Made by a program: the position numbers and the translations under genes
Part shown: in pieces, positions 1,725-23,174 of the stretch
Layout: every line of letters starts with the position of its first letter
How positions within the stretch are numbered: position 1 is the stretch's first letter
The notes under the pieces: model-generated
What the model saw: the letters and a program-made list of their open reading frames with translations, nothing else
Database searches by the model: none
Told to the model about the DNA's origin: nothing
Source: a virus
Virus record (IMG/VR): IMGVR_UViG_3300027631_001829
Coordinates: 1 to 24,278 of that record
DNA: 24,278 nt
Reading direction: 5' to 3' (one strand)

Positions 1725-1957
1725 TGTCACAAGAAGTTATAGATGTACCACAATCAATAAATTGTGAAAATTGTAATCCTTGTATTAGACTAAGATTAAT
1801 GGAAATAGGTTTTATACAAGGTCAGGAAATTGAAGTTGGTGGTGAGAAATTAGGATTACATATTATACATCTATTATCTAATAATGGTACTATTTCGCAA
1901 ACATTCGCACTAAGAAAAGAAGAATTAGGCAGAATTTGCCTAAAAGAAAAAAAATGA
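1724..1957 (+). CDS. FeoA-like small SH3-fold protein
   Basis: This 77-residue protein matches the FeoA domain. In bacteria that domain is a small SH3-like barrel that partners the ferrous iron transporter FeoB or forms the C-terminus of DtxR-type regulators. The signature is the run RLRLMEIGF at residues 22-30, followed by a Gly-containing turn (GQEIEV), strands, and the closing FALRKEELGRI at 61-71, where the family normally has LALR..EA..I. An N-terminal Cys-x-x-Cys-x-x-Cys (C14, C17, C20) is an addition that might bind a metal. No FeoB is present nearby. The gene starts on the last base of the CsgG-like stop codon and its stop overlaps the next start (ATGA), so translation of all three genes is probably coupled. 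The role in a phage is unknown. Confidence 0.7.
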   Translation: MSQEVIDVPQSINCENCNPCIRLRLMEIGFIQGQEIEVGGEKLGLHIIHLLSNNGTISQTFALRKEELGRICLKEKK

Positions 1958-2724
1958 AAAAATGTTATATCCTATTTTTATTCTTTTTATTTCTACTATC
2001 ATTTCAAAACGTAAATGGTCAGTCTGTTGTTACTCAAACTTTTATAGATAAATGCACTGGAGAAATGAAAGTCGCAACCACTACATATGTAAATGGTCAG
2101 GCTGTCATAAGTTTTTATAATCAAATTAAAACATTTACACAAGCCGAAGTTAATGCTGGAATTGCTCAGGTTTGGTTGTTATCGGTTAAAACTTCTTACG
2201 AAGCAATAACTTGTCCAATTAATAACCCCGTTGTTACTCAAACTGTACAACAAACAGTAACTCAGGCAGCCACAGCAGCAGCTGCAGCAGCAGCAAGTGC
2301 GGCGGCATCAGCAGCGGCAAGTTCCGCAGCTTCATCAGCAGCATCGTCATCAGCATCATCAGCAGCAAGTAGTAGTGCTAGTTCAGCCGCTGCTAGTTCC
2401 GCATCAACTCCACCAAGTACACCTCCAAGCGGAGGGTCTAGTAGTTCATCTAGTAGTTCATCTAGTAGTTCATCTAGTGGTTCATCCGAATCTAAAACGG
2501 AGTCTAAAACTGAAAGTAGTTCAGAGTCAAAAAGTGAATCAAAGTCGGAAAGTAAAAGTGAAGAAAAGAAAGAAGAATCTAAATCAGAGTCTAAAGAAGA
2601 AAAGAAAGAAGAGAAAAAGGAAGAATCTAAAGAGGAGAAAAAGGAAGAGAAAAAAGAAGAAAAAAAGAAAAAATATGAATCCAATGCTTTTAGCGTCGGA
2701 TTTAACAACCGCACAATCAGTTGA
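1954..2724 (+). CDS. N-terminal part of a split surface protein: signal peptide plus Ala/Ser- and Glu/Lys-rich repeats
   Basis: I prefer the ATG at 1954 because it forms an ATGA overlap with the upstream stop and directly precedes a signal peptide (MKKCYILFLFFLFLLSF...NGQS). An in-frame ATG at 1936 would add six charged residues. After the signal comes a domain of about 85 residues with two or three Cys, then a long low-complexity region: Ala-rich, Ser-rich, a pure Ser run, Ser/Glu/Lys, and finally Glu/Lys. The DNA includes four 12-bp tandem units. The reading frame ends at 2724 after a short out-of-family tail, while a neighbouring frame carries a beta-barrel domain from about 2675. One extra base in the A-tracts at 2660-2673 would explain the split; without it the gene would encode a single 457-residue outer-membrane protein. 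Confidence 0.65.
   Translation: MKKCYILFLFFLFLLSFQNVNGQSVVTQTFIDKCTGEMKVATTTYVNGQAVISFYNQIKTFTQAEVNAGIAQVWLLSVKTSYEAITCPINNPVVTQTVQQTVTQAATAAAAAAASAAASAAASSAASSAASSSASSAASSSASSAAASSASTPPSTPPSGGSSSSSSSSSSSSSSGSSESKTESKTESSSESKSESKSESKSEEKKEESKSESKEEKKEEKKEESKEEKKEEKKEEKKKKYESNAFSVGFNNRTIS
2437..2484 (+). repeat. Four 12-bp tandem units encoding polyserine
   Basis: TCTAGTAGTTCA occurs at 2437, 2449 and 2461, with a one-base variant at 2473. The unit length keeps frame, so copy-number change would alter the length of the Ser run without disrupting the protein. Confidence 0.85.
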
Positions 2725-3328
2725 TGGTCAATATAGTGTAATGTTATCTATGGGTGTAAGTAGGACATCTATGGCGGGAGATAAATCATTCGGTGTTAAT
2801 GGAATTGTATGGTCAACACTAGACCAATATGTAGTTTCATCAAGTTACACCAAAATGGACTTTAGTAATGGTAAATTAAATGCTATTCACTCATATGGAG
2901 CATCTGTAGCATATTTGAAAGGTACTTGGATGACACTTACTTCATACACATTTATAAAACCAGATCCTAAGTTTGGTACATATGGTGTTAACGTTGGAGG
3001 TATTGGATTGTTAACCAAGGATTTACAAGGTAATCACGACATTAGCATTTCCACATCATTAGTTGGATTTTGGACCAAACCGTTTCAATATAGTAAAAAA
3101 TTAACATTGTCCCCTCAAGTATTTGTTATGTCATCACCCATAAGTTATCAACCATCGGCAGGTTCAACTATGATAAATAGAAGTGTTGGATTTTTAGTTG
3201 GTAGTAGTTTTGATTATAAAATTTCTAAACGTTTTGGGTTTAGTTTTAATTATAAAGCTAACTTCAACACCTCACCAGGTTCACAGGTACTACATAACTT
3301 CTTGGTTGGGTCAAGGGTTATGCTTTAA
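2675..3328 (+). CDS. C-terminal outer-membrane beta-barrel part of the split surface protein
   Basis: The frame from the ATG at 2675 encodes 217 residues beginning MNPMLLASDLTTAQSVDG and ending with NFLVGSRVML. It has alternating hydrophobic/polar strands, many Gly, Ser and Tyr, and aromatic girdle-like residues, as in small outer-membrane barrels. It has no signal peptide of its own, but it continues directly from the Glu/Lys tract of the frame starting at 1954 if one A is removed, so the two pieces probably belong to one secreted protein. The frame also stays open upstream to about 2297, but there it only mirrors the Ser/Lys-coding DNA and is not real protein. As it stands the barrel could be made only by frameshifting or re-initiation, and re-initiation would leave it without an export signal. 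Confidence 0.6.
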   Translation: MNPMLLASDLTTAQSVDGQYSVMLSMGVSRTSMAGDKSFGVNGIVWSTLDQYVVSSSYTKMDFSNGKLNAIHSYGASVAYLKGTWMTLTSYTFIKPDPKFGTYGVNVGGIGLLTKDLQGNHDISISTSLVGFWTKPFQYSKKLTLSPQVFVMSSPISYQPSAGSTMINRSVGFLVGSSFDYKISKRFGFSFNYKANFNTSPGSQVLHNFLVGSRVML

Positions 3329-3831: not shown

Positions 3832-4311
3832 TTAGTTATTTTTAATTCTTTTCCATTTGGCCTCTCTTGCTTCTGGACTTAACATAAAAATCTCTTCAAT
3901 TTTATGAGGTATTTCGTTTCTACCACAACTTTCGGTTAATTTACAATTTTTCAAATAATTGTTGATGTATCCCATCATATTGTGACTACCAATTGGGTTT
4001 GCCGAATGAACATAAATTGATGGTAGTGGAATATTGGTGTCCATACTAAGGTTAACCAAAAATTTACAACAATCATATCCTGTCTTCTCTTCTATATTTT
4101 CATAGTTAAGTTTGTAATTATCTTTTACGTTATTGTAATACTCAATCATTGCACTCTCACCTAAATCGTGATCTAAAGATATCTTCCCGATGTTATTTAA
4201 ACCGTGTGTTTCAATTAAAGATACAAACTGATAGTAATCTCTGGCAATCACCCAACCATCTTCTAATGGGGTCCTAACGTCGTCTAGATATATGTTAATT
4301 TTATTATTCAT
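3832..4311 (-). CDS. Cyclic-phosphate-processing receiver domain protein (cREC)
   Basis: This 159-residue protein carries the hallmark residues of the cREC family, a receiver-fold domain predicted from comparative genomics to process 2',3'-cyclic phosphate RNA ends and often found next to RNA ligases. Visible are an N-terminal strand ending in the acidic pair D10-D11 followed by R-x-P, the SLDHDLG signature at 45-51, and VHSANPIG at 101-108 before a helix containing two Met. It differs from ordinary response-regulator receivers in having His in the phospho-acceptor region and no output domain. The start overlaps the end of the RNA ligase gene by 8 nt, so the two are translationally linked. 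With the ligase and the upstream P-loop kinase it forms an RNA-repair cassette. The family assignment is strong; the biochemical role is inferred. Confidence 0.8.
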   Translation of the reverse strand: MNNKINIYLDDVRTPLEDGWVIARDYYQFVSLIETHGLNNIGKISLDHDLGESAMIEYYNNVKDNYKLNYENIEEKTGYDCCKFLVNLSMDTNIPLPSIYVHSANPIGSHNMMGYINNYLKNCKLTESCGRNEIPHKIEEIFMLSPEAREAKWKRIKNN

Positions 4312-5473
4312 TTTTAAATGGTTTTGAGTAAGTTGGGTATAATATTTTCCAAATACTTTGTTTATGTTCCTTTCCGTCTAACATATTAAATAAAATGTTA
4401 GAGTGTCTATATTGTTTTGCCCTAATTGCAAACTCTTTTCTATCTAAATTTCGTGATTTTAAATTTTCATAAATTTCGGTGTAGTCTTTATTAATGTTAT
4501 CAAACCTAATAGTTAAGTCTTTAACAGTTTCTTTAACCCAATTATTAAATTCATCAGGAACTTTTTCTAATAACTCATCAAATGGTTTATTATCTTTCAA
4601 ATACTCCCAAATATCCCTATTTGATATGTTTGTAATAATTCTATGTAATCTAACGTATTCTTCACCTTTAATTTTTATCCGTGAAATTGGTCTATCATTA
4701 AATTTTAAAACATAACCTTCATTATCATTTGATATTGTATTTTTTAATGATTCAATATCGTCACCTAAATTATATGACTTAACAAGTTCAAAATTACATC
4801 CACCAATTAAACCATCACAATGTTCTAACGGCATTTCAAAATCATCAACCATAGTATGAACAATACCAAGTAAGATTAGTTTTTCTTCTGAACCGTAGTT
4901 AACGACAATCCTATTTTCGGGATAAATTATTTCAAAAAGATATGTGTACCCAGGATGTAAAGAATCTAAATTATGTTTTTTTAAAATTTCAGAACCTTTA
5001 ATTGCCTGTTCGGATGTAAACGATCCTCTAGATGCAAAAACCCACTCGTCTTTTGTTTTTGGTGTTGGTTGATAATATGGGTTATCATAATCTGGTATGT
5101 TGTTTGGGTCAAAGAACCTTTCCATACCTGTTTCATAATTGTTATTAAACCATATGTTATATCTTCTTTCATCTGTTAGTTCTTCTTCATAATGAAAAAG
5201 AATTCCTAAAGATCCGTCTAGTTTTTCGTAAACTTTAAAATCTCCACTAGGTAGGGAGTCCATTTCCTCTAAATTAAAAAATTTTCTAAATGGTCTAGCA
5301 ACTATTCTACCTTTTGAGTTAGTTACTAATCCACGACATTGCATCGTTATATCATCCCATAACTTCTCATATTGAACTTTTTGGGAATAATTCCAAATTG
5401 TTAAATCTTTAGTTGGGTGGGTTTGTTTTATTAACAAACCATCTTCGTAATATTTTTCTAATTTTTCTAACAC
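4304..5473 (-). CDS. rnlA: RNA ligase, T4 Rnl1-like
   Basis: A 389-residue nucleotidyltransferase-type RNA ligase, which would adenylylate itself on lysine, activate an RNA 5'-phosphate and seal it to a 3'-OH. Motif I is KLDGSLG with catalytic K84. It is preceded by the Rnl1-type stretch CRGLV (46-50) and RPFRKFFN (60-67). Motif III lies near FASRGSF (147-153), motif IIIa is LFEIIYPE (179-186), motif IV NEGYVLKF (251-258) and motif V RIKIKGEEYV (265-274). Length is close to T4 Rnl1 (374). The start is GTG at 5473; an in-frame stop lies just upstream and no ATG fits better. T4 Rnl1 repairs tRNA cut by the host anticodon nuclease PrrC, and a similar counter-defence role is likely here. The kinase gene lies upstream and the cREC gene overlaps the 3' end. 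Confidence 0.9.
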   Translation of the reverse strand: MLEKLEKYYEDGLLIKQTHPTKDLTIWNYSQKVQYEKLWDDITMQCRGLVTNSKGRIVARPFRKFFNLEEMDSLPSGDFKVYEKLDGSLGILFHYEEELTDERRYNIWFNNNYETGMERFFDPNNIPDYDNPYYQPTPKTKDEWVFASRGSFTSEQAIKGSEILKKHNLDSLHPGYTYLFEIIYPENRIVVNYGSEEKLILLGIVHTMVDDFEMPLEHCDGLIGGCNFELVKSYNLGDDIESLKNTISNDNEGYVLKFNDRPISRIKIKGEEYVRLHRIITNISNRDIWEYLKDNKPFDELLEKVPDEFNNWVKETVKDLTIRFDNINKDYTEIYENLKSRNLDRKEFAIRAKQYRHSNILFNMLDGKEHKQSIWKILYPTYSKPFKNE

Positions 5474-5550
5474 AACGCTTTATTAAAGGTTCGTTTCTTT
5501 TTTGGTTTGGGTCGACAACATTAAGGAATGAAACAATAAATTGACTCATC

Positions 5551-5976
5551 TTAGAGTTTAATTTCGAATCTATTTTTCATTTGTTCCAATTTTTCATCTG
5601 GAACATTATGGATGTTTACACTTCCGTGTCTATTTTCAACAATAACGCTGTGTACTCTATATTTGTATCTTTCCGCCATTTCATAATAGGAATCCATTTC
5701 CCATTTTTCGGTGAAAGTATTTGCAACAACAATCCTTGAGATTTCTAACTTCATTCTTTCCGCACATTTTTGTTGACAATCATTGTGTGCTTGTTTTATT
5801 TTAGTTGCATCAAAATTATAATTTCCTTTATCGTCCATAAAGAAATTATCCGCCGATAATACGTCTGGGGAATTAGACCCTGGGCAGTGTAAAATTATAT
5901 CACCTAATGACGTTTTACCACTTCCTGGTAACCCTCTTAATAATATTAAGTCTCCCGTGTATTCTTTATCCTCCAT
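5551..5976 (-). CDS. P-loop kinase, predicted RNA/DNA 5'-kinase (N4BP2/AAA_33 type)
   Basis: A 141-residue P-loop protein with Walker A GLPGSGKT at 15-22, a SADNFF acidic motif at 41-46 (as in polynucleotide-kinase-like P-loop kinases), VANTF at 84-88 followed by W-E-M-x-x-Y, and a C-terminal HNVPDEKLEQMKNRFE segment at 123-138. This order matches the AAA_33 / N4BP2-like kinases, relatives of the kinase half of T4 Pnk. No phosphatase half is present, unlike T4 Pnk (301 residues); the cREC protein two genes downstream could supply 3'-end processing instead. First gene of the kinase-ligase-cREC series. A perfect inverted repeat and a TATTTATT lie just upstream. The kinase fold is certain; RNA as substrate is inferred from the neighbours. 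Confidence 0.82.
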   Translation of the reverse strand: MEDKEYTGDLILLRGLPGSGKTSLGDIILHCPGSNSPDVLSADNFFMDDKGNYNFDATKIKQAHNDCQQKCAERMKLEISRIVVANTFTEKWEMDSYYEMAERYKYRVHSVIVENRHGSVNIHNVPDEKLEQMKNRFEIKL

Positions 5977-6415: not shown

Positions 6416-8434
6416 TTACAATAATTTTTTTACAATCGTTAGTTTTTCAGACTTATACTTTAAAGTAATATTCTCATTTTCTTTAATATTTCCTCGTAAT
6501 ATTTCTTCACTTAGGAAATCTTCACATAGATTTTGAATAATACGTTTTAAAGGTCTTGCACCATATTCCTCTTGAGTGTTTAATTCGTAGATTCTTTCAA
6601 TCACCGATTTATCAAAAGTAATTTTATAACTTTTTTCGGTTAATCTATTGTTTAGTTTACCAACCTCAATTTGAATAATCTTTTTAAGAGTTTCCTCATT
6701 AAGGGGATTGAATAAGATAATGTCATCAATTCTATTTAAAAACTCAGGATTGAACTGTTGTTTCAAAGCTTTTTGAATGATTGATCTTTTAACATCAGAT
6801 TTTTGTTGTGCACTTGACCCAGTGTTAAAACCGACTCCACCGCCAAAATCAGACACACGTTTTGCTCCAACATTAGAAGTCATAATAATAATCGTATTTG
6901 TAAAATTTACTTTACGACCAAATGAGTCAGTTAAATGACCTTCATCTAAAATTTGAAGTAAGATATTGAATACGTCTTTATGTGCTTTCTCAATTTCATC
7001 AAATAAAATTACAGAGAAGGGGTTATTTTTAACTTTCTCAGTCAACTGACCTCCTTCGTCGTAACCAACATAACCTGGAGGAGAACCTATCAATTTAGAT
7101 ACGTTGTGTTTCTCCATAAACTCACTCATATCAACACGGATGATTTTATCTGGATCACCAAATAATAAATCTGCAATCGATTTAGCTAGAAATGTTTTAC
7201 CAACACCAGTGGAACCAATAAAAATAAATGAACCGATTGGTTTGTTTGCGTCCTTAATACCAACTCTATTTCTTCTAATAGATTTAGAAATGGTTGCAAT
7301 CGCATCGTCTTGACCAATTACCTTTGCAGATAATAAAGATTCCATTTTTAAAAGTTTTTCGGTTTCTTTGGAATCTAATTTAGTTATTGGGACTCCCGTC
7401 ATTTCAGATATAATATCGTATACATCGTCGATAGTGATTGGGGTTTTATTTTCTTTTAAACTATCCGCCCATTTTTGTTTCTCATCTTCAAGTTTGACGA
7501 TTAACTTTCTTTCCTCGTCTCTTAATTTTGCTGCTTGTTCGTAGTTTTGAGATTTTACAACTTGAATCTTCTTTTCTTTAATTTCTTCAACACTCTTTTT
7601 CAATTTCTCAATAGATTCTGGAACTCTACTACTCACTCTTTTTTCCGAACCTAATTCATCTAATACATCAATTGCCTTATCTGGAAATTGTCTATCAGTA
7701 ATATAACGATTTGAAAGCTTAACAATTGTTTCTATAACATTATCCTCATATTGTACTTTATGAAATGTTTCATAAGACGATTTAAGATTTTTTATAATTT
7801 CAATTGTCTCAGATTGAGTTGGTTCTCTTAAAATTATTTTTTGGAATCTTCTTACAAGTGCGGAATCTTTTTCTAAATGTTTCTTATATTCATCAAAGGT
7901 AGTTGCTCCAATACATTGAATCTCACCTCTTGCAAGTGCTGGTTTTAAAATGTTAGCAGCATCCATCGCTCCACTAGCATTACCCGCACCAACCATTGTA
8001 TGTAATTCATCAATGAAAACAATAACATTCGTTACCTGTTGTAATTCATTTAAGATTGCTTTAATTCTTTCTTCAAACTGTCCACGGTATTTTGTACCTG
8101 CAACGAGTGAAGTTAAATCAAGGGAAACAACTCTCTTATCTAAAAGATTGGTAGGACATTCTCCCTTATAAATCATTAAAGCTAATTTTTCAACTAATGC
8201 GGTTTTACCCACACCAGCGTCTCCCACGATAACTGCATTATTTTTTTTCTTACGGGACAGAATCTGAGCAATTCTTTTCACTTCTTTATCTCGACCAATT
8301 ACTGGGTCAATTTTACCTTCTTCGGCAATCTTAGTTAGGTCCCTTGAGAAATTATCTAAAATTGGTGTTTCTGAACCTTTACGAACTTTCCTTGGGTTAG
8401 TTTGTGGTCCTTCTTCAAAAAAATCTACAGCCAT
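6416..8434 (-). CDS. clpC: ClpC-like AAA+ unfoldase lacking the N-terminal Clp_N domain
   Basis: A two-ring-domain Hsp100 unfoldase that threads substrate proteins, normally into ClpP. I start at the ATG at 8434 (672 residues): the longer frame from 8467 begins inside a near-perfect promoter. D1 has Walker A GDAGVGKT at 71-78 and Walker B VIVFIDELH. The middle region contains a UVR-like coiled coil (QNYEQAAKLRDEE) as in ClpC. D2 has GSTGVGKT and Walker B VILFDEIEKAH. The D2 loop keeps VGF, the (I/V/L)GF tripeptide that docks on ClpP. Only about 40 residues precede D1, so the roughly 150-residue Clp_N substrate/adaptor domain of host ClpC (about 840 residues) is missing. The gene is divergent from hsp20 across a shared operator-like region. 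It probably couples to host ClpP, with altered substrate choice. Confidence 0.9.
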   Translation of the reverse strand: MAVDFFEEGPQTNPRKVRKGSETPILDNFSRDLTKIAEEGKIDPVIGRDKEVKRIAQILSRKKKNNAVIVGDAGVGKTALVEKLALMIYKGECPTNLLDKRVVSLDLTSLVAGTKYRGQFEERIKAILNELQQVTNVIVFIDELHTMVGAGNASGAMDAANILKPALARGEIQCIGATTFDEYKKHLEKDSALVRRFQKIILREPTQSETIEIIKNLKSSYETFHKVQYEDNVIETIVKLSNRYITDRQFPDKAIDVLDELGSEKRVSSRVPESIEKLKKSVEEIKEKKIQVVKSQNYEQAAKLRDEERKLIVKLEDEKQKWADSLKENKTPITIDDVYDIISEMTGVPITKLDSKETEKLLKMESLLSAKVIGQDDAIATISKSIRRNRVGIKDANKPIGSFIFIGSTGVGKTFLAKSIADLLFGDPDKIIRVDMSEFMEKHNVSKLIGSPPGYVGYDEGGQLTEKVKNNPFSVILFDEIEKAHKDVFNILLQILDEGHLTDSFGRKVNFTNTIIIMTSNVGAKRVSDFGGGVGFNTGSSAQQKSDVKRSIIQKALKQQFNPEFLNRIDDIILFNPLNEETLKKIIQIEVGKLNNRLTEKSYKITFDKSVIERIYELNTQEEYGARPLKRIIQNLCEDFLSEEILRGNIKENENITLKYKSEKLTIVKKLL

Positions 8435-8455
8435 ATTAATAAGTTTTATTTTGTA

Positions 8456-8486
8456 CAAATGTAACATAAATTATTCTAAAAACAAA
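8456..8486 (-). promoter_or_regulatory. Host-type promoter for clpC
   Basis: On the minus strand TTTG (8483-8486), 19 nt, TACATTTG (8456-8463), a full match to the Bacteroidota consensus. The -7 box overlaps the upstream candidate start at 8467, which decides for the ATG at 8434 and gives a leader of about 16 nt. Confidence 0.75.
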
Positions 8487-8490
8487 ATTA

Positions 8491-8545
8491 AGACAAAATG
8501 TCTAAAAAAATGTCTAACAAATGTCTAAATGTCACTTTTAGACAT
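8491..8545. promoter_or_regulatory. Operator-like array of ATGTCTAA repeats between clpC and hsp20
   Basis: ATGTCTAA occurs at 8498-8505, 8510-8517 and 8521-8528, and inverted (TTAGACAT) at 8538-8545. Spacings of 12 and 11 bp place the direct copies on one DNA face. The first also forms AGACA-AAA-TGTCT (8491-8503). Palindromic TTGTACAA copies lie outside the array at 8451-8458 and 8558-8565, near each gene's start. Confidence 0.6.
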
Positions 8546-8586
8546 TTGGCAAATAAATTGTACAAAAGTACAAAAACAATATTATT

Positions 8587-8955
8587 ATGATAACATTATT
8601 TAAAGACCCGTTCTTCAACACATTGGATAATGTGTTTGAACAATCGAGAGTAGGAACCTCTCCACAAATAAACGTTACTAAAAACGAAATGGAGTATAAG
8701 GTTCTTATGGGTGTTCCTGGTTTAACCAAGGAAGATTTAAAAATCACCATTAAAGATGGTATAATTAAAATTTCTTATTCAAAAGAAGAAAAGAGTGAAA
8801 CGTCCCACTTTGTGAATAGTTTCACCAAATCTTACTCATTACCTGATGACGTTAAAGAAAAAGATGTTGAGGGTAAGGTTGAAAATGGAATTTTAGAACT
8901 AACGTTACCGATTGATAAAAAGAAGCCGTTAGAAAGAATTATATCTCTTAATTAA
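8587..8955 (+). CDS. Small heat-shock protein (Hsp20 / alpha-crystallin family)
   Basis: A 122-residue ATP-independent chaperone that binds unfolding proteins and prevents aggregation. The alpha-crystallin domain spans about residues 27-110: MEYKVLMGVPGL at 35-46 matches the family's Y-x-v-x-x-d-l-P-G, KEDLKITIKDGIIKIS follows, and the C-terminal strand has the near-invariant ENGILEL at 99-105 (family A-x-x-x-n-G-v-L). The N-arm is short, about 26 residues, and the C-tail carries PLERI rather than a clear I-x-I. T4-like cyanophages commonly encode Hsp20; here it is divergent from a ClpC-like gene, suggesting shared control by the repeat array between them and a protein-quality role during virion assembly. 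A terminator follows within a few bases. Confidence 0.93.
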   Translation: MITLFKDPFFNTLDNVFEQSRVGTSPQINVTKNEMEYKVLMGVPGLTKEDLKITIKDGIIKISYSKEEKSETSHFVNSFTKSYSLPDDVKEKDVEGKVENGILELTLPIDKKKPLERIISLN

Positions 8956-8995: not shown

Positions 8996-9003
8996 TATTT
9001 ATA
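8996..9003 (+). promoter_or_regulatory. TATTTATA candidate late promoter
   Basis: Immediately follows the hsp20 terminator and lies 17 nt upstream of the ATG at 9021. Confidence 0.5.
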
Positions 9004-14308: not shown

Positions 14309-14316
14309 TATTTATA
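14309..14316 (+). promoter_or_regulatory. TATTTATA candidate late promoter, abutting the terminase start
   Basis: Only 3 nt separate the octamer from the ATG at 14320, and a strong terminator lies immediately upstream. If it acts as a -10-like element, the mRNA would begin at or near the ATG. Confidence 0.5.
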
Positions 14317-14319
14317 TAT

Positions 14320-16095
14320 ATGAATAATAGAGCAGAACAATTATTAGAATACGCGAAAATTATAAAGGACACGCCTTATGCTCTGAGAACGTATCTACAA
14401 ACGTATGATAATACTCAGAAGAAGTACGTACCTATGGATTTATTTCCTGACCAAATACAATTGATTCAGGATTACGAAAATTACAACGAAAATATTACTA
14501 AAAAATATAGACAAGCGGGTGTAACTACGGTAACCGCCGCTTGGTTATCAAAAAAATTACAATTAGCAAAACCTGAGAATCCTGAAAGAATTCTTATTAT
14601 TGCAAACAAACGTGATACGGCAATTGAGATGGCTAATAAAGTTAGACACTTTATTGACCAATGGCCTGAATGGATAAATGTTGGTTTTTCACCCGATAAG
14701 AACTCAGAAAGTAGATTTAGATTAAATAACGGTTCGGAAGTAAAAGCCGTCGCAACATCTGCGGATGCACTTCGTGGTTTTACACCAACTGTACTTGTTT
14801 TTGATGAGGCGGCTTATATCGAAGCTGGTGATGATTTTTGGGCAGCATCTATGGCATCCTTGTCCACAGGTGGTAAGATTATTCTTATCTCAACCCCAAA
14901 TGGATATGACCCAATTTACTACGGTGTTTATGATCAAGCGTTAAGAGGTATTAATGACTTCCATATAACTGATTTAAGGTGGTTTAAAGACCCAAGGTAT
15001 ACCAAAGACTTAAAGTGGGTTAAATGTAGTGACATATGTCATTATATGTTGAATAGAGAACAATATAATGATGATGATGTTGTTCTTAATGAATTCGATA
15101 TGTCTAATTACCAAGAATTAGAAGAACAGGGTTATAAACCGTTCTCATCTTGGTTTGAGTCAATGTCTAAGAAATTTAAATACGATAGACGTAAAATTGC
15201 TCAAGAGTTAGAATGTGACTTTTTAGGTTCTGGAGATGGAGTTATTCCTGGTGATATTCAAGAGAATATTGCTAAGAATATGATTAGGGTACCAATCGAG
15301 AAATATATGCAAGGAACCTTTTGGCAATGGAAAGAACCAATTAATGGTCACAGATATATTATGGGAGTTGACGTTAGTAGAGGTGATAGTGAGGATTTTT
15401 CATCTATTAACATTATAGATTTTGATGATAGGGAACAGGTTGCGGAATATATTGGTAAAATACCTCCAGACGATTTAGCATCGGTGGCATATAAATGGGG
15501 TATTTTATATGGTAATGCCTTTATCGTTATCGATATTACGGGAGGTATGGGAGTTGCTACATCAAGAAAATTACAAGAATTAAATTACAAGAATCTTTAT
15601 ATTGATGGAATAAACACTCAAAACATTTGGGAGTACAATAAGAAAGCACTAGATAAAATACCAGGTTTAAATTTTAATAATAAAAGAACTCAAATTGTTG
15701 CGGCGTTTGAAGAGGCCCTGAGAAAAGGGTTTAGTGTTAGGTCTAATAGATTGTTAAATGAACTTAATACGTTTGTTTATATGAATGGTAGACCTGACCA
15801 TATGAAAGGTGCTCACGATGATGCCATTATGAGTTTATCTATGGCGTTATATTCGGCGGACATTTGTTTTAATCAACTTGAAAAAACAGAAAACGCAAAC
15901 AAAGCAATGTTAGAGTCTTGGACTATGTCAGAAAGGACATATGAGGTTAATAAATCACACTATTCATATGGAACGTCGTTAGACCCAATCGGGGCGATGG
16001 CTACCGACCCAAGTTTTTTTCATAAGGATAACCCACATAACGTACCAAAAGATATGTATAGGGAATTCTCTTGGTTGTTCGGAAAAAGTAAATAA
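14320..16095 (+). CDS. terL: Terminase large subunit (T4 gp17-like)
   Basis: The DNA-packaging motor, an ATPase that pumps genomic DNA into the prohead through the portal, fused to a nuclease that cuts concatemers. The 591 residues compare with 610 in T4 gp17. The ATPase has a deviant Walker A KYRQAGVTT at 62-70 in which the usual Lys after Gly is Val, Walker B VLVFDEAA at 158-165 (D162, E163) and coupling motif STPNG at 191-195. The RNase H-fold nuclease shows three acidic positions: D351 (GVDVSRGDS), D405 (VIDITGG) and D500/D501 (AHDDA). T4 gene order would place tail genes 18 and 19 next; here the portal follows directly. The ATG at 14320 is the only good start before Met39. Confidence 0.95.
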   Translation: MNNRAEQLLEYAKIIKDTPYALRTYLQTYDNTQKKYVPMDLFPDQIQLIQDYENYNENITKKYRQAGVTTVTAAWLSKKLQLAKPENPERILIIANKRDTAIEMANKVRHFIDQWPEWINVGFSPDKNSESRFRLNNGSEVKAVATSADALRGFTPTVLVFDEAAYIEAGDDFWAASMASLSTGGKIILISTPNGYDPIYYGVYDQALRGINDFHITDLRWFKDPRYTKDLKWVKCSDICHYMLNREQYNDDDVVLNEFDMSNYQELEEQGYKPFSSWFESMSKKFKYDRRKIAQELECDFLGSGDGVIPGDIQENIAKNMIRVPIEKYMQGTFWQWKEPINGHRYIMGVDVSRGDSEDFSSINIIDFDDREQVAEYIGKIPPDDLASVAYKWGILYGNAFIVIDITGGMGVATSRKLQELNYKNLYIDGINTQNIWEYNKKALDKIPGLNFNNKRTQIVAAFEEALRKGFSVRSNRLLNELNTFVYMNGRPDHMKGAHDDAIMSLSMALYSADICFNQLEKTENANKAMLESWTMSERTYEVNKSHYSYGTSLDPIGAMATDPSFFHKDNPHNVPKDMYREFSWLFGKSK

Positions 16096-16137: not shown

Positions 16138-16145
16138 TATTTATA
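16138..16145 (+). promoter_or_regulatory. TATTTATA candidate late promoter, abutting the portal start
   Basis: Four nt upstream of the ATG at 16150, the same geometry as the terminase site. Confidence 0.5.
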
Positions 16146-16149
16146 TACG

Positions 16150-17967
16150 ATGGCAGAGAATAATAACACAGTCTTTCAGAAATTAACAAGGATGTTTGGT
16201 TACCCTAATCAGGTAAAAAAAGACCAAATCCCTTCATTTAATTTCTCTAAAGACCAAATACTAAAGACGGACAATAGAGAAGAGTACGAAAAGGCGGTGT
16301 TGCAAGCACAACAAAGTCAATACGTTGCCGATAAATGGGCTAAATTAGACCAATCTCTTTATAACCAATCGGTTTATTATGAACCAAACAGATTAGCGGC
16401 CTATTACGATTATGAATCTATGGAGTTTACTCCTGAAATTTCGGCAGCTTTAGATATCTACGCAGAAGAGTCTACAACACTTTCAGAAAAGGGTGAGATA
16501 TTAACAATCTTTTCTGAATCAGATAGAGTTAAAACAATATTAGAAGATTTATTTATCAACAAATTAGATATAAACACTAACTTACAAATGTGGGCTAGAG
16601 GTTTATGTAAATATGGTGATGATTTTGTCTATTTAAAAATTGACCCTGAAAAGGGTATCATTGGTGTACAACAATTACCAAACATTGAAATAGAAAGAAT
16701 TGAGGGTTCGTCATCTAAGAACCCTGGACAAATGTCTGACGCTAAATCTCCAACAAGAGAACTACGTTTTACTTGGAAGAACAAAGAAATGGAATTCCAA
16801 GCTTGGGAGATTGCTCACTTTAGATTATTGGGTGATGACAGAAAACTACCTTATGGTACTTCTATGTTAGACAAGATTAGAAGAATTTGGAAACAACTTT
16901 TACTTGCTGAAGACGCAATGTTAATTTACAGAACATCAAGAGCACCTGAAAGACGTGTGTTCAAAGTATTCGTTGGTAATATGGACGATAAGGACATTGA
17001 ACCATATGTACAACGTGTGGCAAGTAAATTCAAAAGAGATGCTATTGCTGATCCACGTAATGGTAATGTGGATATGAGATATAATCAGATGGCTGTTGAC
17101 CAAGATTATTTTATCCCTGTACGTGATCCGTCACAAACAAACCCAATCGAAACTTTACCAGGGGCACAAAACTTAGGTGAGATTGCTGATATTGAATATA
17201 TCCAAAAGAAATTATTAGCCGCGTTACGTATTCCAAAAGCGTTCTTAGGATTTGAAGAAGTTGTTGGTGAAGGTAAAACTTTAGCATTAATGGATATTCG
17301 TTTCGCTAGAACAATTAATAGAATACAAAAATCATTAATTCAAGAATTAAATAAAATCGCTTTAGTTCATTTATACCTTATGGGTTTAGAAGATGAATTA
17401 AATAATTTTACATTATCATTAACAAACCCATCAGCACAATCTGATTTATTACGTATAGAACAATGGAAAGAAAAGGTTACTCTTTATAAAGATGCAACCT
17501 CAGACCAATCACAAGTTGGTATATTACCTGTTTCACATACTTGGGCTAAAAAGAATATACTTGGATTTAGTGATTCTGAAGTTATTCTTGATTTACAACA
17601 ACAACGTTTAGAAAGAGCAATGGGATTTGAATTAACAAATACTCAAAATGTTATTAAACGTTCAGGAGTATTTGATGATGTGGATGCTAAGTATGGGATT
17701 CCAGAAGAGGAGAGAAAAGCGGCGGAAGCTGCGGGGGCAACTGGTGAAGCACCTGCGGGAGGTGGAATGGATATGGGTGGAGGATCACCACCACCAGCTG
17801 ATGCAGGAGGAGAGGCACCACTTAGTGAATCTAAATCTAAGAAATCAAAAATATTAGGGATGTTAGGTGACGAAAGTTTATCAATTAATGACTTATTTGA
17901 TATGGATAAGGCGAAACGTAATATTTATGAAATAGAAACAAAAATAAAAGACATTTTAAACGATTAA
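16150..17967 (+). CDS. Portal protein (T4 gp20-like)
   Basis: Forms the dodecameric ring at the single head vertex through which DNA enters and to which the tail attaches. The 605-residue protein has T4 portal landmarks: SAALDIYAEESTT near the N-terminus, WARGLCKYGDDFVYL, IAHFRLLGD..LPYGTSML, AEDAMLIYRTSRAPERRVFKV, and LRIPKAFLGFEE..GKTLA before a helical crown region. It exceeds T4 gp20 (524) mainly through a C-terminal extension: a Gly/Pro-rich linker (about 525-557), then LSE560-S561, which fits the prohead-protease pattern, and a helical tail of 45 residues. That tail may bind scaffold and be removed on maturation, which is inference. It is followed 2 nt later by a small helical protein gene. 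Confidence 0.95.
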   Translation: MAENNNTVFQKLTRMFGYPNQVKKDQIPSFNFSKDQILKTDNREEYEKAVLQAQQSQYVADKWAKLDQSLYNQSVYYEPNRLAAYYDYESMEFTPEISAALDIYAEESTTLSEKGEILTIFSESDRVKTILEDLFINKLDINTNLQMWARGLCKYGDDFVYLKIDPEKGIIGVQQLPNIEIERIEGSSSKNPGQMSDAKSPTRELRFTWKNKEMEFQAWEIAHFRLLGDDRKLPYGTSMLDKIRRIWKQLLLAEDAMLIYRTSRAPERRVFKVFVGNMDDKDIEPYVQRVASKFKRDAIADPRNGNVDMRYNQMAVDQDYFIPVRDPSQTNPIETLPGAQNLGEIADIEYIQKKLLAALRIPKAFLGFEEVVGEGKTLALMDIRFARTINRIQKSLIQELNKIALVHLYLMGLEDELNNFTLSLTNPSAQSDLLRIEQWKEKVTLYKDATSDQSQVGILPVSHTWAKKNILGFSDSEVILDLQQQRLERAMGFELTNTQNVIKRSGVFDDVDAKYGIPEEERKAAEAAGATGEAPAGGGMDMGGGSPPPADAGGEAPLSESKSKKSKILGMLGDESLSINDLFDMDKAKRNIYEIETKIKDILND

Positions 17968-17969
17968 AA

Positions 17970-18710
17970 ATGAACAATTTCGGGAAGATTAAATCCAAGT
18001 TATTGAAAACGATAACCGAAGCTTACGAGCAAGGAGAACTTAAGAATAACACTAAGAACTTAATTAAAGTAGTTAAGAAGAATAAGGACTTTAAAGAAAT
18101 GTATATGTTTTACGAAGAAATCGAAAACAAATACTTTGACGATAAAGAAACTGCAAGGTTATATGTTGAAGAAATTGGAAACATATTAAAACAAAAGGCA
18201 ACTAAAGTTAAGGATTTCTGTGAAGTAATTAATATGTCTGTTTACAATACTCAAATTGATGAGAATGAGTTATACGATTCAATTGACCAATTACTAGAAG
18301 AAGATAGTTTAAAAAATATTGACAAAAAAGTAGTTGCTAAGAAAAAATTAGTAGAACATTTAACAAAAAAGAAAGAAATTAAAGAATCAGGATTAGAAAC
18401 ATATACCTCAAATGAGAATCTTTTACACGCTGTTTTAGCAAATAACTTTAATGTATTATACAGTAATAATTTAAATGAAGAACAACAAACAGAATTAAAA
18501 ACTATTCTTTCAATCTCAAATGAAGATTTAGTTTTGAAAACTACAGAATTAAAAGAATCTATTCTTAATAGAGTTGGTTCACTTTTAAGTGAATCTAACG
18601 ACAACGACTTAACCACTAAATTAAGTAAAGTAAAGGATGAGGTTCAAGATATGGATTTATCCAAATACAATTATTATCGACTTACTCAACTAAAAAATGG
18701 TCTTGTTTAA
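17970..18710 (+). CDS. Helical prohead-core-type protein
   Basis: A 246-residue, almost wholly helical, Lys/Glu-rich protein beginning 2 nt after the portal stop, in the position where T4 carries the small core genes 67 and 68. The N-terminus KLLKTITEAYEQ contains ITE17-A18, and LLSE-S occurs near the C-terminus; both fit prohead-protease sites. Coiled-coil-like segments span the middle. I see no enzymatic motif. The 3' end lies within a perfect 13-bp inverted repeat shared with the convergent bS21 gene, and the two stop codons overlap. A head-core role is inferred from position and composition only. Confidence 0.7.
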   Translation: MNNFGKIKSKLLKTITEAYEQGELKNNTKNLIKVVKKNKDFKEMYMFYEEIENKYFDDKETARLYVEEIGNILKQKATKVKDFCEVINMSVYNTQIDENELYDSIDQLLEEDSLKNIDKKVVAKKKLVEHLTKKKEIKESGLETYTSNENLLHAVLANNFNVLYSNNLNEEQQTELKTILSISNEDLVLKTTELKESILNRVGSLLSESNDNDLTTKLSKVKDEVQDMDLSKYNYYRLTQLKNGLV

Positions 18711-18724
18711 TCAAGACCATTTTT
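18693..18724. terminator. Perfect bidirectional terminator within the two convergent gene ends
   Basis: AAAAATGGTCTTG (18693-18705), loop TTTAAT, CAAGACCATTTTT (18712-18724): a 13-bp perfect stem with T-runs on both strands. It overlaps the final codons of both the plus-strand core protein and the minus-strand bS21 gene. Confidence 0.9.
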
Positions 18725-18898
18725 AATTTGTTGAATATACGTCGCCTTTAAACGTTGTGTTCTTTTCACAACGGAGGGTTTAACAAATTCTTGTCTTTCT
18801 CTTAACTCTTGAATTTGTTTGGTATTACGTACCTTGTTTTTATACAGCTTTAGAGCTCCCTCGATTCCCTTATTACTGTCTACTTTAATATATAACAT
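18707..18898 (-). CDS. rpsU: Ribosomal protein bS21 homologue
   Basis: A 63-residue basic protein closely matching Bacteroidota bS21: an N-terminal strand of the type (M)xxIxVxxNxxIxxALKxxK (here Leu-Tyr-Ile-Lys-Val, then ALKLYKNKV), a helix where hosts have LRRRQ (ELRERQEFVKPS at 32-43), and a long basic C-terminal helix (KRTQRLKATYIQQIKN). bS21 sits on the small-subunit platform next to the 3' end of 16S rRNA; in Flavobacterium ribosomes it helps sequester the anti-Shine-Dalgarno tail. A phage copy could replace host bS21 and bias translation. It is the only minus-strand gene inside the head block, with its own host-type promoter and no Shine-Dalgarno, whereas host rpsU in Bacteroidota is known to carry a strong one. 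Start at 18898, about 16 nt after the promoter box. Confidence 0.88.
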   Translation of the reverse strand: MLYIKVDSNKGIEGALKLYKNKVRNTKQIQELRERQEFVKPSVVKRTQRLKATYIQQIKNGLD

Positions 18899-18914
18899 AT
18901 CTATAATTATATCC

Positions 18915-18946
18915 CAAATATACTAAATGTTTTTTGGTATTTCAAA
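18915..18946 (-). promoter_or_regulatory. Host-type promoter for rpsU
   Basis: On the minus strand TTTG (18943-18946), 20 nt, TATATTTG (18915-18922), a full match to the Bacteroidota TTTG / TAnnTTTG consensus. Confidence 0.75.
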
Positions 18947-19001: not shown

Positions 19002-19427
19002 ATGAAAACAGGAAAGTATATCTCCCTTGGAGAATACAACGAAGTGAAAATAGGATACGGAACCGTAGACTTCAAAAACTTAAAAACAATTTACCTAAAA
19101 TTAAATGCTTGGGTAGAACCAAATAATGATACGGATGATTTTGATCATTTAATCAATAAAACTAGAAGGGGAATAAAAGAAATAATATACAATTTAAAAA
19201 ATGAAAATTTCAAACCTCAATGTATTGTAGATTTAGATATTAGAACAAAGGGTATAAAATTAAATAAAAGGTCATTTATGAACCTTGAGGTTACATTATA
19301 TGTTGATAATTTCTTCGATGTTAAGTCTAAAAACATTAAATTATCAGTTAAAGACATTATAAAATCCATCATCGACGATAGATTATCTAATAAAAATCTC
19401 TTTAACTTCTACAAAAACAAGAAATAA
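19002..19427 (+). CDS. Hypothetical protein upstream of the prohead protease
   Basis: A 141-residue protein that opens a plus-strand unit divergent from rpsU. It is rich in Lys, Asn and Asp with beta-like segments (FKNLKTIYLKLNAWVEP; CIVDLDIRTKGIKL; FMNLEVTLYVDNFF) and helical stretches (HLINKTRRGIKEIIYNLK; VKDIIKSIIDDRL). No signal, membrane or catalytic motif is visible. The ATG at 19002 is preferred over one at 18990, which opens only a three-codon frame. Its position just before gene 21 suggests a head-assembly role, but I cannot assign one. Confidence 0.65.
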   Translation: MKTGKYISLGEYNEVKIGYGTVDFKNLKTIYLKLNAWVEPNNDTDDFDHLINKTRRGIKEIIYNLKNENFKPQCIVDLDIRTKGIKLNKRSFMNLEVTLYVDNFFDVKSKNIKLSVKDIIKSIIDDRLSNKNLFNFYKNKK

Positions 19428-19441
19428 CTTATATATCGTTG

Positions 19442-19449
19442 TATTTATA
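19442..19449 (+). promoter_or_regulatory. TATTTATA candidate late promoter for the prohead protease
   Basis: 19 nt upstream of the ATG at 19469, the same spacing as for the scaffold gene. Confidence 0.5.
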
Positions 19450-19468: not shown

Positions 19469-20152
19469 ATGAAGATATTAGGTCCTAATGAGACGGGGAA
19501 AGGAATATTAATCGAGTACGACGCTGGACACGTTTCCCCCGAAGACAACAAAAAAATTATATCGGAGATGAAGGATATGGACTTTTCACAAGACCTTATC
19601 CTTTATGCCGTTTTGCAAAAATACGACACACCGAACAAAAACGGGAGAATCTACCCCGAAGTCATTCTTAAGAGAGAAGACCAAAAATACCAACAACTTA
19701 TTAAAAAAGGTGGAGCCCTTAACGAATTAAACCACCCTTCATCTTCACTTATCGATTTGGATAGAGTTTCACATTCTATTCTTGAGACTTGGTGGGAAGG
19801 AAAAATGTTAATGGGTAAAATAAAATTATTCACTTCTCCAGGTTGGAGAAAGATGGGTATTGTATCTACTAAGGGAGACCAAGCGGCAATGTTAATTATG
19901 AACGGAGCAACTCTTGGTATCTCATCTCGTGGAGTTGGTTCATTAAAGAACGTAAAAGGTCAAAACATTGTTCAGGAAGACTTTGAACTAGTTTGTTTTG
20001 ATTTAGTATCGTCACCATCTACTCCTGGGGCATATGTATTTGCAGACCTAGAAGACAGAGAACAGTATCAAGAATCGGTAAAGGAAAATCCGATACTTGA
20101 TGACAGAATGAAAAAATTAATGGGGGGTTTAGATAAATTTTTATCTAAATAA
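19469..20152 (+). CDS. Prohead core protease (T4 gp21-like)
   Basis: The maturation protease (peptidase family U9 type, herpes assemblin-like fold) that cleaves scaffold, core and capsid proteins inside the prohead. The 227 residues compare with 212 in T4 gp21. Seen are NGRIYP at 58-63, ELNHP at 86-90 with the likely catalytic H89, a hydrophobic strand MLMGKIKLF, the ATLGISSRGVGS segment at 147-158 containing the likely nucleophile S152 or S153, and FDLVSSPSTPGAYV at 177-190, all in the family order. It is immediately followed by its presumed substrates, the gp22-like scaffold and gp23-like capsid protein. Catalytic residues are assigned by analogy. A TATTTATA lies 19 nt upstream. Confidence 0.93.
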   Translation: MKILGPNETGKGILIEYDAGHVSPEDNKKIISEMKDMDFSQDLILYAVLQKYDTPNKNGRIYPEVILKREDQKYQQLIKKGGALNELNHPSSSLIDLDRVSHSILETWWEGKMLMGKIKLFTSPGWRKMGIVSTKGDQAAMLIMNGATLGISSRGVGSLKNVKGQNIVQEDFELVCFDLVSSPSTPGAYVFADLEDREQYQESVKENPILDDRMKKLMGGLDKFLSK

Positions 20153-21440: not shown

Positions 21441-23174
21441 ATGGGAGCATTATTAGAAAGCGGTATGGTTGGTAACATCGGGTTAAAACACCTTAGAGTT
21501 ATCAAAGAAGATACCATCAAAAAATGGGACGAACTAGGATTCTTAGAAGGTCTAGAAGGTCACCAAAAAGATAACATCGCACAATTGTATGAAAACCAAG
21601 CGTCACACTTAATCAACGAAGCAGCAGTAGCTGATGCGTCTGGTTCTTTCGAGACTGTAGTTTTCCCTATCATTCGTCGTGTATTCTCTAAATTATTAGC
21701 TAACGACATCGTGTCTGTACAAGCTATGAACTTACCAATTGGTAAATTATTCTTCTTCGTTCCTAAAATTCAGGAAAGAAATTCAGGAGCTCACTATTCT
21801 CCATATGGTATGCCAGGAGCTGGTGGAAGTGCTTCAACTGGTTACACAGGAAATAACTTATACGACAGATTCTACGAAGGTGGAGATGACGCAGATCAAG
21901 GATTGTTTGACTACTCTAAAGGAGAAGTTACTGACGTATCTTTAACTGGTACTTCTATCGTTACTTTTGCAACTGGTGTTGAAAGTTCTCCAGTAACTTT
22001 AACTTCAGGTTCAACTGCATCATCTAGTGTGATTGTTAAATTAACTGGTTTCTCTAAACCAGGTCAAGGTAAATTAGCTGGTCCAGACGGTAACGAAATG
22101 GATACAGAAGAGTTCTTAGCTTCTTTACAGATTTCATCTGCTAAAGTTAGAGCTGGTGCTTCATTACCTTTCAATGTGGTAACACAAAAATATGGTAAAG
22201 GTATTGTTGAATACGGTACAAAAAGATTTGATGCAGCTAACGGTGCTGGATATCAAGATATCTGTGATGAAAATGGTATTATCTACTTAAGTGTAGATTT
22301 AGAAACATATTCAGCAACTTCAGGTTTCTCAAAATTCACTCCAACAGGTACAACAGATTTAGATGGTGCTGATTTCGTAGCTACTTACCGTAGATATGCA
22401 TCTTTAGAATTTGAAGATCAAATTGGTGAAGTATCTTTTGACCTTTCTTCTGTGACAGTTTCTGTAACTGAAAGAAAATTAAGAGCTAGCTGGTCTCCAG
22501 AATTGGCACAAGACGTTAGTGCATTCCACAACATCGATGCTGAAGCTGAGTTAACTGCATTGTTATCTGAGCAAATCGCAGCTGAAGTTGACCGTGAAAT
22601 CTTACGTGATTTACGTAAAGGTGCGGCTTGGAAAGCTAAATGGGATTACAATGAGTGGAAATACGGTGGAACTGGTGGTGCAACTTTACAAGGTTACACT
22701 CAAAAAGATTGGAACCAAACATTGATCACTAAGATCAACCAAGTTTCAGCTCAAATCCACAAAACTACTTTAAGAGGTGGTGCTAACTGGATCGTTGTTT
22801 CTTCAGAAGTTTCTGCAGTATTTGATGATTTAGAGTACTTCCACGTATCTAACGCTCATCCAGAGCAAGATCAGTACAATATGGGTATTGAGAAAGTTGG
22901 TACATTAGCAGGTCGTTACCAAGTATACCGTGACCCTTACTTCCCAGCAGGAAAAATCTTGATTGGACACAAAGGTAAGTCATTGTTAGACGCTGGTTAT
23001 GTATACGCACCATACGTGCCGTTACAATTAACTCCTACTATGTACAATCCGTTCAATATGACTCCAATTAAGGGTATTATGACACGTTACGCAAAGAAAA
23101 TGGTAAACAACCGTTACTTTGGTGTAATTGATGTACAAGGTATCGTTACATTCAGTTTGGATACATTAAGATAA
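21441..23174 (+). CDS. Major capsid protein (T4 gp23-like)
   Basis: The HK97-fold shell protein. The 577 residues exceed T4 gp23 (521). N-terminal residues 1-60 form a helical delta-like peptide (KKWDELGFLEG; IAQLYENQASHLINEA) ending at INE60-A61, matching the T4 cleavage pattern (LTE-A after residue 65). The conserved core follows: VFPIIRRVFSKLLANDIVSVQAMNLP.. , then an inserted beta-rich domain (about 155-330), and the strongly gp23-like RKLRASWSPELAQDVSAFHN and EQIAAEVDREIL, ending with VPLQLTPTMYNP and YFGVIDVQGI. Codon use shifts towards C-ending codons for Phe, Asn and Tyr relative to neighbours, as expected of a very highly expressed gene. Probably co-transcribed with the scaffold; a terminator follows. 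Confidence 0.96.
   Translation: MGALLESGMVGNIGLKHLRVIKEDTIKKWDELGFLEGLEGHQKDNIAQLYENQASHLINEAAVADASGSFETVVFPIIRRVFSKLLANDIVSVQAMNLPIGKLFFFVPKIQERNSGAHYSPYGMPGAGGSASTGYTGNNLYDRFYEGGDDADQGLFDYSKGEVTDVSLTGTSIVTFATGVESSPVTLTSGSTASSSVIVKLTGFSKPGQGKLAGPDGNEMDTEEFLASLQISSAKVRAGASLPFNVVTQKYGKGIVEYGTKRFDAANGAGYQDICDENGIIYLSVDLETYSATSGFSKFTPTGTTDLDGADFVATYRRYASLEFEDQIGEVSFDLSSVTVSVTERKLRASWSPELAQDVSAFHNIDAEAELTALLSEQIAAEVDREILRDLRKGAAWKAKWDYNEWKYGGTGGATLQGYTQKDWNQTLITKINQVSAQIHKTTLRGGANWIVVSSEVSAVFDDLEYFHVSNAHPEQDQYNMGIEKVGTLAGRYQVYRDPYFPAGKILIGHKGKSLLDAGYVYAPYVPLQLTPTMYNPFNMTPIKGIMTRYAKKMVNNRYFGVIDVQGIVTFSLDTLR

Follow-up and report, generated by a model that had tools for sequence, protein, structure and literature searches.

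The window, which is the whole 24,278-base IMG/VR record and a viral fragment without host DNA, carries an inverted gene for a Bacteroidota-type ribosomal protein bS21 whose leader is without the strong Shine-Dalgarno (SD) signal specific to host rpsU. The reading we favour, and regard as about evenly poised, is that a functional bS21 is made late, enters the host 30S subunit and escapes the rpsU feedback, with the ribosome pool drifting to the phage protein. The observed basis of this reading is the identity of the protein, its Tyr54, the inverted placement in the late block, a leader that is SD-less across the family, and a shared promoter-like element and terminator. The rpsU feedback is taken from McNutt et al. 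(2023; PMC9976891) and late expression from Chen et al. (2022; PMC9723584). That the protein is incorporated in this host, displaces host bS21 and benefits the phage is what we infer.

The bS21 open reading frame (ORF) begins with ATG and encodes 63 aa (MLYIKVDSNKGIEGALKLYKNKVRNTKQIQELRERQEFVKPSVVKRTQRLKATYIQQIKNGLD). It matched Pfam PF01165 at 45.9 bits (cut-off 27) and NCBIfam TIGR00030 at 32.1 bits (cut-off 28.95). Its top PDB sequence match was chain z of 7jil, a 64-aa bS21 (3e-12, residues 1–62); 7JIL is the F. johnsoniae ribosome according to Chen et al. (2022). When the protein was aligned with host bS21 proteins, the nearest among those fetched were from Flavobacterium, at 48% identity. 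AlphaFold modeled the two-helix fold of ~60 residues expected for bS21, with helices at 11–35 and 41–60 (mean pLDDT 82, pTM 0.40). The profile scores ruled out a chance ORF, as did the conservation of the gene across 80 or more viral contigs, and the original prediction of a bS21 homologue held.

Bacteroidota-type, anti-SD-hiding bS21 proteins are recognized by an aromatic residue at position 54, and the hiding of the anti-SD tail is attributed to Tyr54. Tyr54 was present in the window protein and in 62/62 proteins of its family; the diverged same-synteny group had 47 Tyr, 5 Phe, and 1 His at this position (aromatic in 53/53). Together with the Flavobacterium relatives, this supported the predicted Bacteroidota type. 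Because Tyr54 is kept, the window protein should hide the anti-SD tail as host bS21 does. The first helix differed from that of hosts: the window has N21, V23, and Q28 where the host has R21, F23, and T28. Across same-synteny phages K27-Q28 was near-invariant (mostly G27-T/V28 in hosts), V23 stood in place of host F23, and R21 was lost. These differences agree with the bS21 divergence at positions 21, 23, 25, and 28 reported by Chen et al. (2022).

As predicted, bS21 was inverted within the T4-like head block, between the TerL and portal genes on one side and the protease and capsid genes on the other (Table 1). An acidic 391-aa protein was encoded between the S77 protease and Gp23-type capsid genes. 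Among relatives in the window's family, 338/338 landmark matches lay on the strand opposite bS21, and both bS21 neighbors had homologues in related loci. Identification of the host from the record itself was dropped, as the record is purely viral and holds no host rpsU for comparison.

Table 1. Features of the bS21 locus and the surrounding head block (window coordinates).
Feature	Position	Strand	Remarks
Large terminase (TerL)	14320..16095	+	TATTTATA at 14309-14316
T4-like portal protein	16150..17967	+	TATTTATA at 16138-16145
Convergent conserved hypothetical gene	17970..18710	+	Overlaps bS21 by 4 nt; ends KNGLV
Predicted bidirectional terminator, 13-bp palindrome with T run	18693..18724	.	Fold -16.5 kcal/mol, z -5.8
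Phage bS21 gene	18707..18898	-	Pfam, NCBIfam, and PDB sequence match; Tyr54
TAATTATA element, variant of TATTTATA	18902..18909	-	Starts 11 nt before bS21 start codon
Host-type promoter match, TTTG-N20-TATATTTG	18915..18946	-	Pattern match
Divergent conserved hypothetical gene adjoining bS21	19002..19427	+	141 aa
Prohead protease (S77)	19469..20152	+	TATTTATA at 19442-19449
Gp23-type major capsid protein (MCP)	21441..23174	+	

By gene order and features set against their description, the window is a new member of the phage family of Chen et al. (2022), who described 47 Bacteroidetes phage genomes with a reverse-strand bS21 amid TerL, portal, prohead protease, and MCP genes. Theirs were jumbo phages in clades a–e, with Tyr54 or another aromatic residue, Clp and chaperone genes, a G+C content of 31.0–33.7%, and genomes of 293–331 kbp, whereas the window is known only as a 24,278-base fragment. 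Shared with them were the reverse-strand bS21 between two conserved hypothetical genes amid TerL/portal/protease/MCP, the aromatic residue 54, the G+C content (32.8% in the window), and nearby Clp and Hsp20 genes. Chen et al. (2022) gave as a rule that TerL-adjacent bS21 was no longer seen below ~70% TerL similarity. This rule failed in IMG/VR, where contigs at 56–62% TerL identity to the window kept the inverted bS21. INPHARED contained no bS21 with more than 60% identity to that of the window and no TerL match reaching 60% identity.

SD strength was scored by pairing the 30 nt that precede each start codon with GGAUCACCUCCUUUCU, which we take to be the Bacteroidota 16S tail; the contrast between host and phage was stable with other tail lengths that covered the extended pairing. 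All 80 Flavobacterium-type host rpsU genes scored -19.6 kcal/mol or stronger (range -19.6 to -24.7, median -22.2), compared with a median of -3.8 for host genes adjoining rpsU (1.3% below -9), in keeping with the unusually strong host SD that had been predicted. Only confident starts were counted, as starts were not reliably placeable in part of the genomes, and 86% of the 122 host genes so retained, a sample that leans towards Flavobacterium, fell below -13. The viral set comprised 306 bS21 loci, corresponding to 145 distinct protein-plus-leader pairs. The bS21 leader of the window, identical to that of locus L005, scored -4.0 kcal/mol, and the 66 distinct bS21 leaders of its family ranged from -5.4 to 0.8 (median -1.5, none below -9). 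The exceptionally strong SD of the rpsU type (below -13 kcal/mol) was found neither in the window bS21 nor in its family, and the SD-less state that had been predicted for the phage gene was thus confirmed.

The remaining window genes had a median SD score of -2.4. SD-lessness is the default in phage and host genes alike, and alone it cannot bias ribosomes towards the phage; the phage bS21 therefore need not favor phage mRNAs. For the same reason the absence of an SD was not accepted as a sign of selection. The original prediction had further proposed that phage bS21 biases ribosomes towards SD-less phage mRNAs. This part fared poorly: host genes adjoining rpsU are also SD-less, and with Tyr54 kept, the phage protein should preserve, not change, the mRNA preference of the host. 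Any change of mRNA choice would need another route, for example the N-terminal helix.

A same-synteny clade formed by L287, L288, L291, L374, and their copies had AAAAGGAGG before bS21 (-12.2). Among neighboring late genes of this clade, 3 of 49 pooled ORFs were below -9, all with an identical -10.4 in three related contigs. On a portal tree of 110 rows, made by a quick method, the SD-bearing rows (only two of them non-identical) formed one tip clade within SD-less relatives, for which a single gain of the SD is the simplest reading. Escape from feedback is therefore not universal. The unrelated phages L294, L319, L321, and L279 also had a bS21 SD (-9.8 to -13.5) and were set aside as clean examples, since SD-like leaders occurred on some of their other genes too. 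L279 (LR756501.1, 735 kb), L294, and L321 are huge or unrelated phages in which SD use elsewhere looks mixed.

The original prediction had placed bS21 behind a textbook Bacteroidota promoter. A host-type TTTG-N20-TATATTTG match was indeed present, but 'textbook' was an overstatement: the window held 3 exact matches against a chance mean of 1.48, hardly above chance, and the -33 TTTG occurred in 4 of 36 distinct family leaders, confined to a few close relatives. Of 111 distinct bS21 leaders, 34% had the -7-like TAnnTTTG (4% in shuffles), which was absent before TerL, portal, and protease genes. A host vegetative promoter as the sole promoter was rejected because the -33 element is unconserved and bS21 shares TATTTATA-type elements with late genes.

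In leaders from related phages, which are hence not independent samples, TATTTATA lay upstream of TerL in 70% (4% in shuffles), portal in 66% (5%), and protease in 71% (3%); it was absent before the capsid gene. Plus-strand copies in the window began at 8996, 10708, 14309, 16138, 19442, and 20207, and all six were intergenic, 11–42 nt ahead of rightward-block genes. The total count of eight in the window was not beyond chance (mean 4.1). A resembling element, TA[ACT]TTATA, was better conserved than the -33 element: 69% of bS21 leaders carried it, against 9% in shuffles, and its usual positions were -12/-11 or -28 to -26. The TATTTATA/TAATTATA-type element is read here as a candidate phage late promoter element, to which the host-type element possibly adds transcription of bS21. 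Literature searches turned up no relevant description of a late promoter motif from Bacteroidota phages. On this reading, messenger RNAs whose 5' ends lie beside the ATG would have almost no leader, and a bS21 mRNA of this kind would offer no room for an SD.

bS21 and the convergent gene each have their stop codon within the predicted terminator palindrome, which is why both proteins end in KNGL plus one residue. A hairpin across the stop codon was found for 48 of 51 family proteins ending in NGLx and for 2 of 11 ending otherwise. Ten distinct stems, hand-picked among those seen, had 100% pairing, with three pairs changed on both sides; compensatory stem changes were seen in relatives L040, L072, L071, and L074. 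The two genes overlapped by 4 or 8 nt in the L002–L081 loci where both ends were placeable. Several diverged lineages had the two genes 28–430 nt apart and a bS21 without the NGL end. Chen et al. (2022) took the conserved bS21 C-terminus as possibly important for ribosome substitution. The overlapping terminator offers a non-ribosomal reason, and the conservation may partly reflect it.

In F. johnsoniae, the extended SD of rpsU subjects the gene to autoregulation by ribosomes without bS21, which favor rpsU and do worse on SD-less mRNAs (McNutt et al., 2023). The window gene resembles this rpsU in protein family, near-equal length, Tyr54, and 48% identity; it differs in its leader, whose pairing energy with the 16S tail is -4.0 kcal/mol against about -22 for the host leader. 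Phage bS21 is expressed late and transcribed with structural genes in the phages of Chen et al. (2022), and the window gene would likewise supply a functional bS21 of the Bacteroidota type in the late phase of infection. The phage protein would enter host 30S subunits, either instead of host bS21 or alongside it. The 16S tail would stay hidden because the C-terminal anchor and Tyr54 are kept, and host rpsU, which needs that tail, would remain poorly translated. Being SD-less, the phage copy would be translated like other phage late mRNAs and not be throttled by bS21 levels, and the ribosome pool would shift in favor of the phage protein. It is plausible that the phage gene escapes the rpsU feedback of the host, in that this follows logically from the circuit of McNutt et al. 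(2023). A wider reading is tentative and, as a whole, rather improbable: the family captures the bS21 control loop of the host, its SD-less late copy keeping host rpsU off, staying exempt, and taking over the pool, while the derived clade gained an SD and joined the feedback.

Ribosome substitution with selection of phage transcripts was already proposed by Chen et al. (2022), and Mizuno et al. (2019) are also credited with the substitution idea, as quoted in PMC9976891 and PMC9723584. In the specialized ribosome of the Chen et al. model the anchor is kept, and the N-terminal helix over the mRNA path differs and selects phage mRNAs. The phage-specific first-helix residues and the divergence reported by Chen et al. 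fit this model, as does the higher A content of phage leaders (0.53, against 0.37 for host genes beside rpsU), although A-richness may simply mirror base composition. Host mRNAs are SD-less as well and no discriminating mRNA feature is known; we consider such selection fairly unlikely. That phage bS21 instead keeps all ribosomes replete and aids SD-less mRNAs generally, with specificity and rpsU control unchanged, seems less probable still. The poorer performance of bS21-lacking ribosomes on SD-less mRNAs (McNutt et al., 2023) and the likeness of the phage protein to ordinary Bacteroidota bS21 speak for it, but the autoregulation of the host should suffice to keep its ribosomes replete, and the phage-specific helix residues are conserved.

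A role as an extraribosomal or virion-packaged RNA-binding protein, or as a neutral passenger gene, is very improbable. Packaging was raised as a possibility by Chen et al. (2022), while a neutral passenger fits badly with a reading frame, Tyr54, orientation, and terminator conserved across many contigs. As to entry into ribosomes, the bS21 of Pelagibacter phage HTVC008M is reported to enter E. coli ribosomes in work on viral ribosomal proteins in general (Mizuno et al., 2019; PMC6375957). This bS21 is likewise phage-encoded but belongs to another host lineage; the literature search found no report of ribosome entry by a bS21 of the window's family.

Substitution by phage bS21 is thus not a new idea; the regulatory contrast between an SD-less phage copy and a strong-SD host rpsU is cleaner than any found published. 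A term search of the main text of Chen et al. (2022) gave no mention of a promoter, terminator, autoregulation, or the SD state of bS21 leaders. McNutt et al. (2023) discuss phage bS21, and among the papers searched there was no later study of the leaders of phage bS21 genes. Of the ribosomal proteins that phages encode, bS21 is said to be the commonest, and the rpsU feedback in Bacteroidota is a measurable circuit already worked out. Host rpsU at about -22 kcal/mol, set against SD-less phage copies and one SD-bearing clade, makes the hijacking idea directly testable with reporters.

Additional observations were made elsewhere in the window. Upstream of the head block, a Clp-type AAA+ ATPase gene (683 aa) was divergent from an Hsp20-like gene (6416-8955). 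An RNA ligase gene (RNA_lig_T4_1) on the minus strand lay beside an AAA_33 P-loop kinase-like gene (4304-5976), an arrangement that recalls T4-like RNA repair. A signal-peptide protein with a Ser/Ala and then a Lys/Glu low-complexity stretch was encoded at 1936-3328; its own frame stops at 2724 and another frame is open to 3328, possibly through a frameshift in the repeat.
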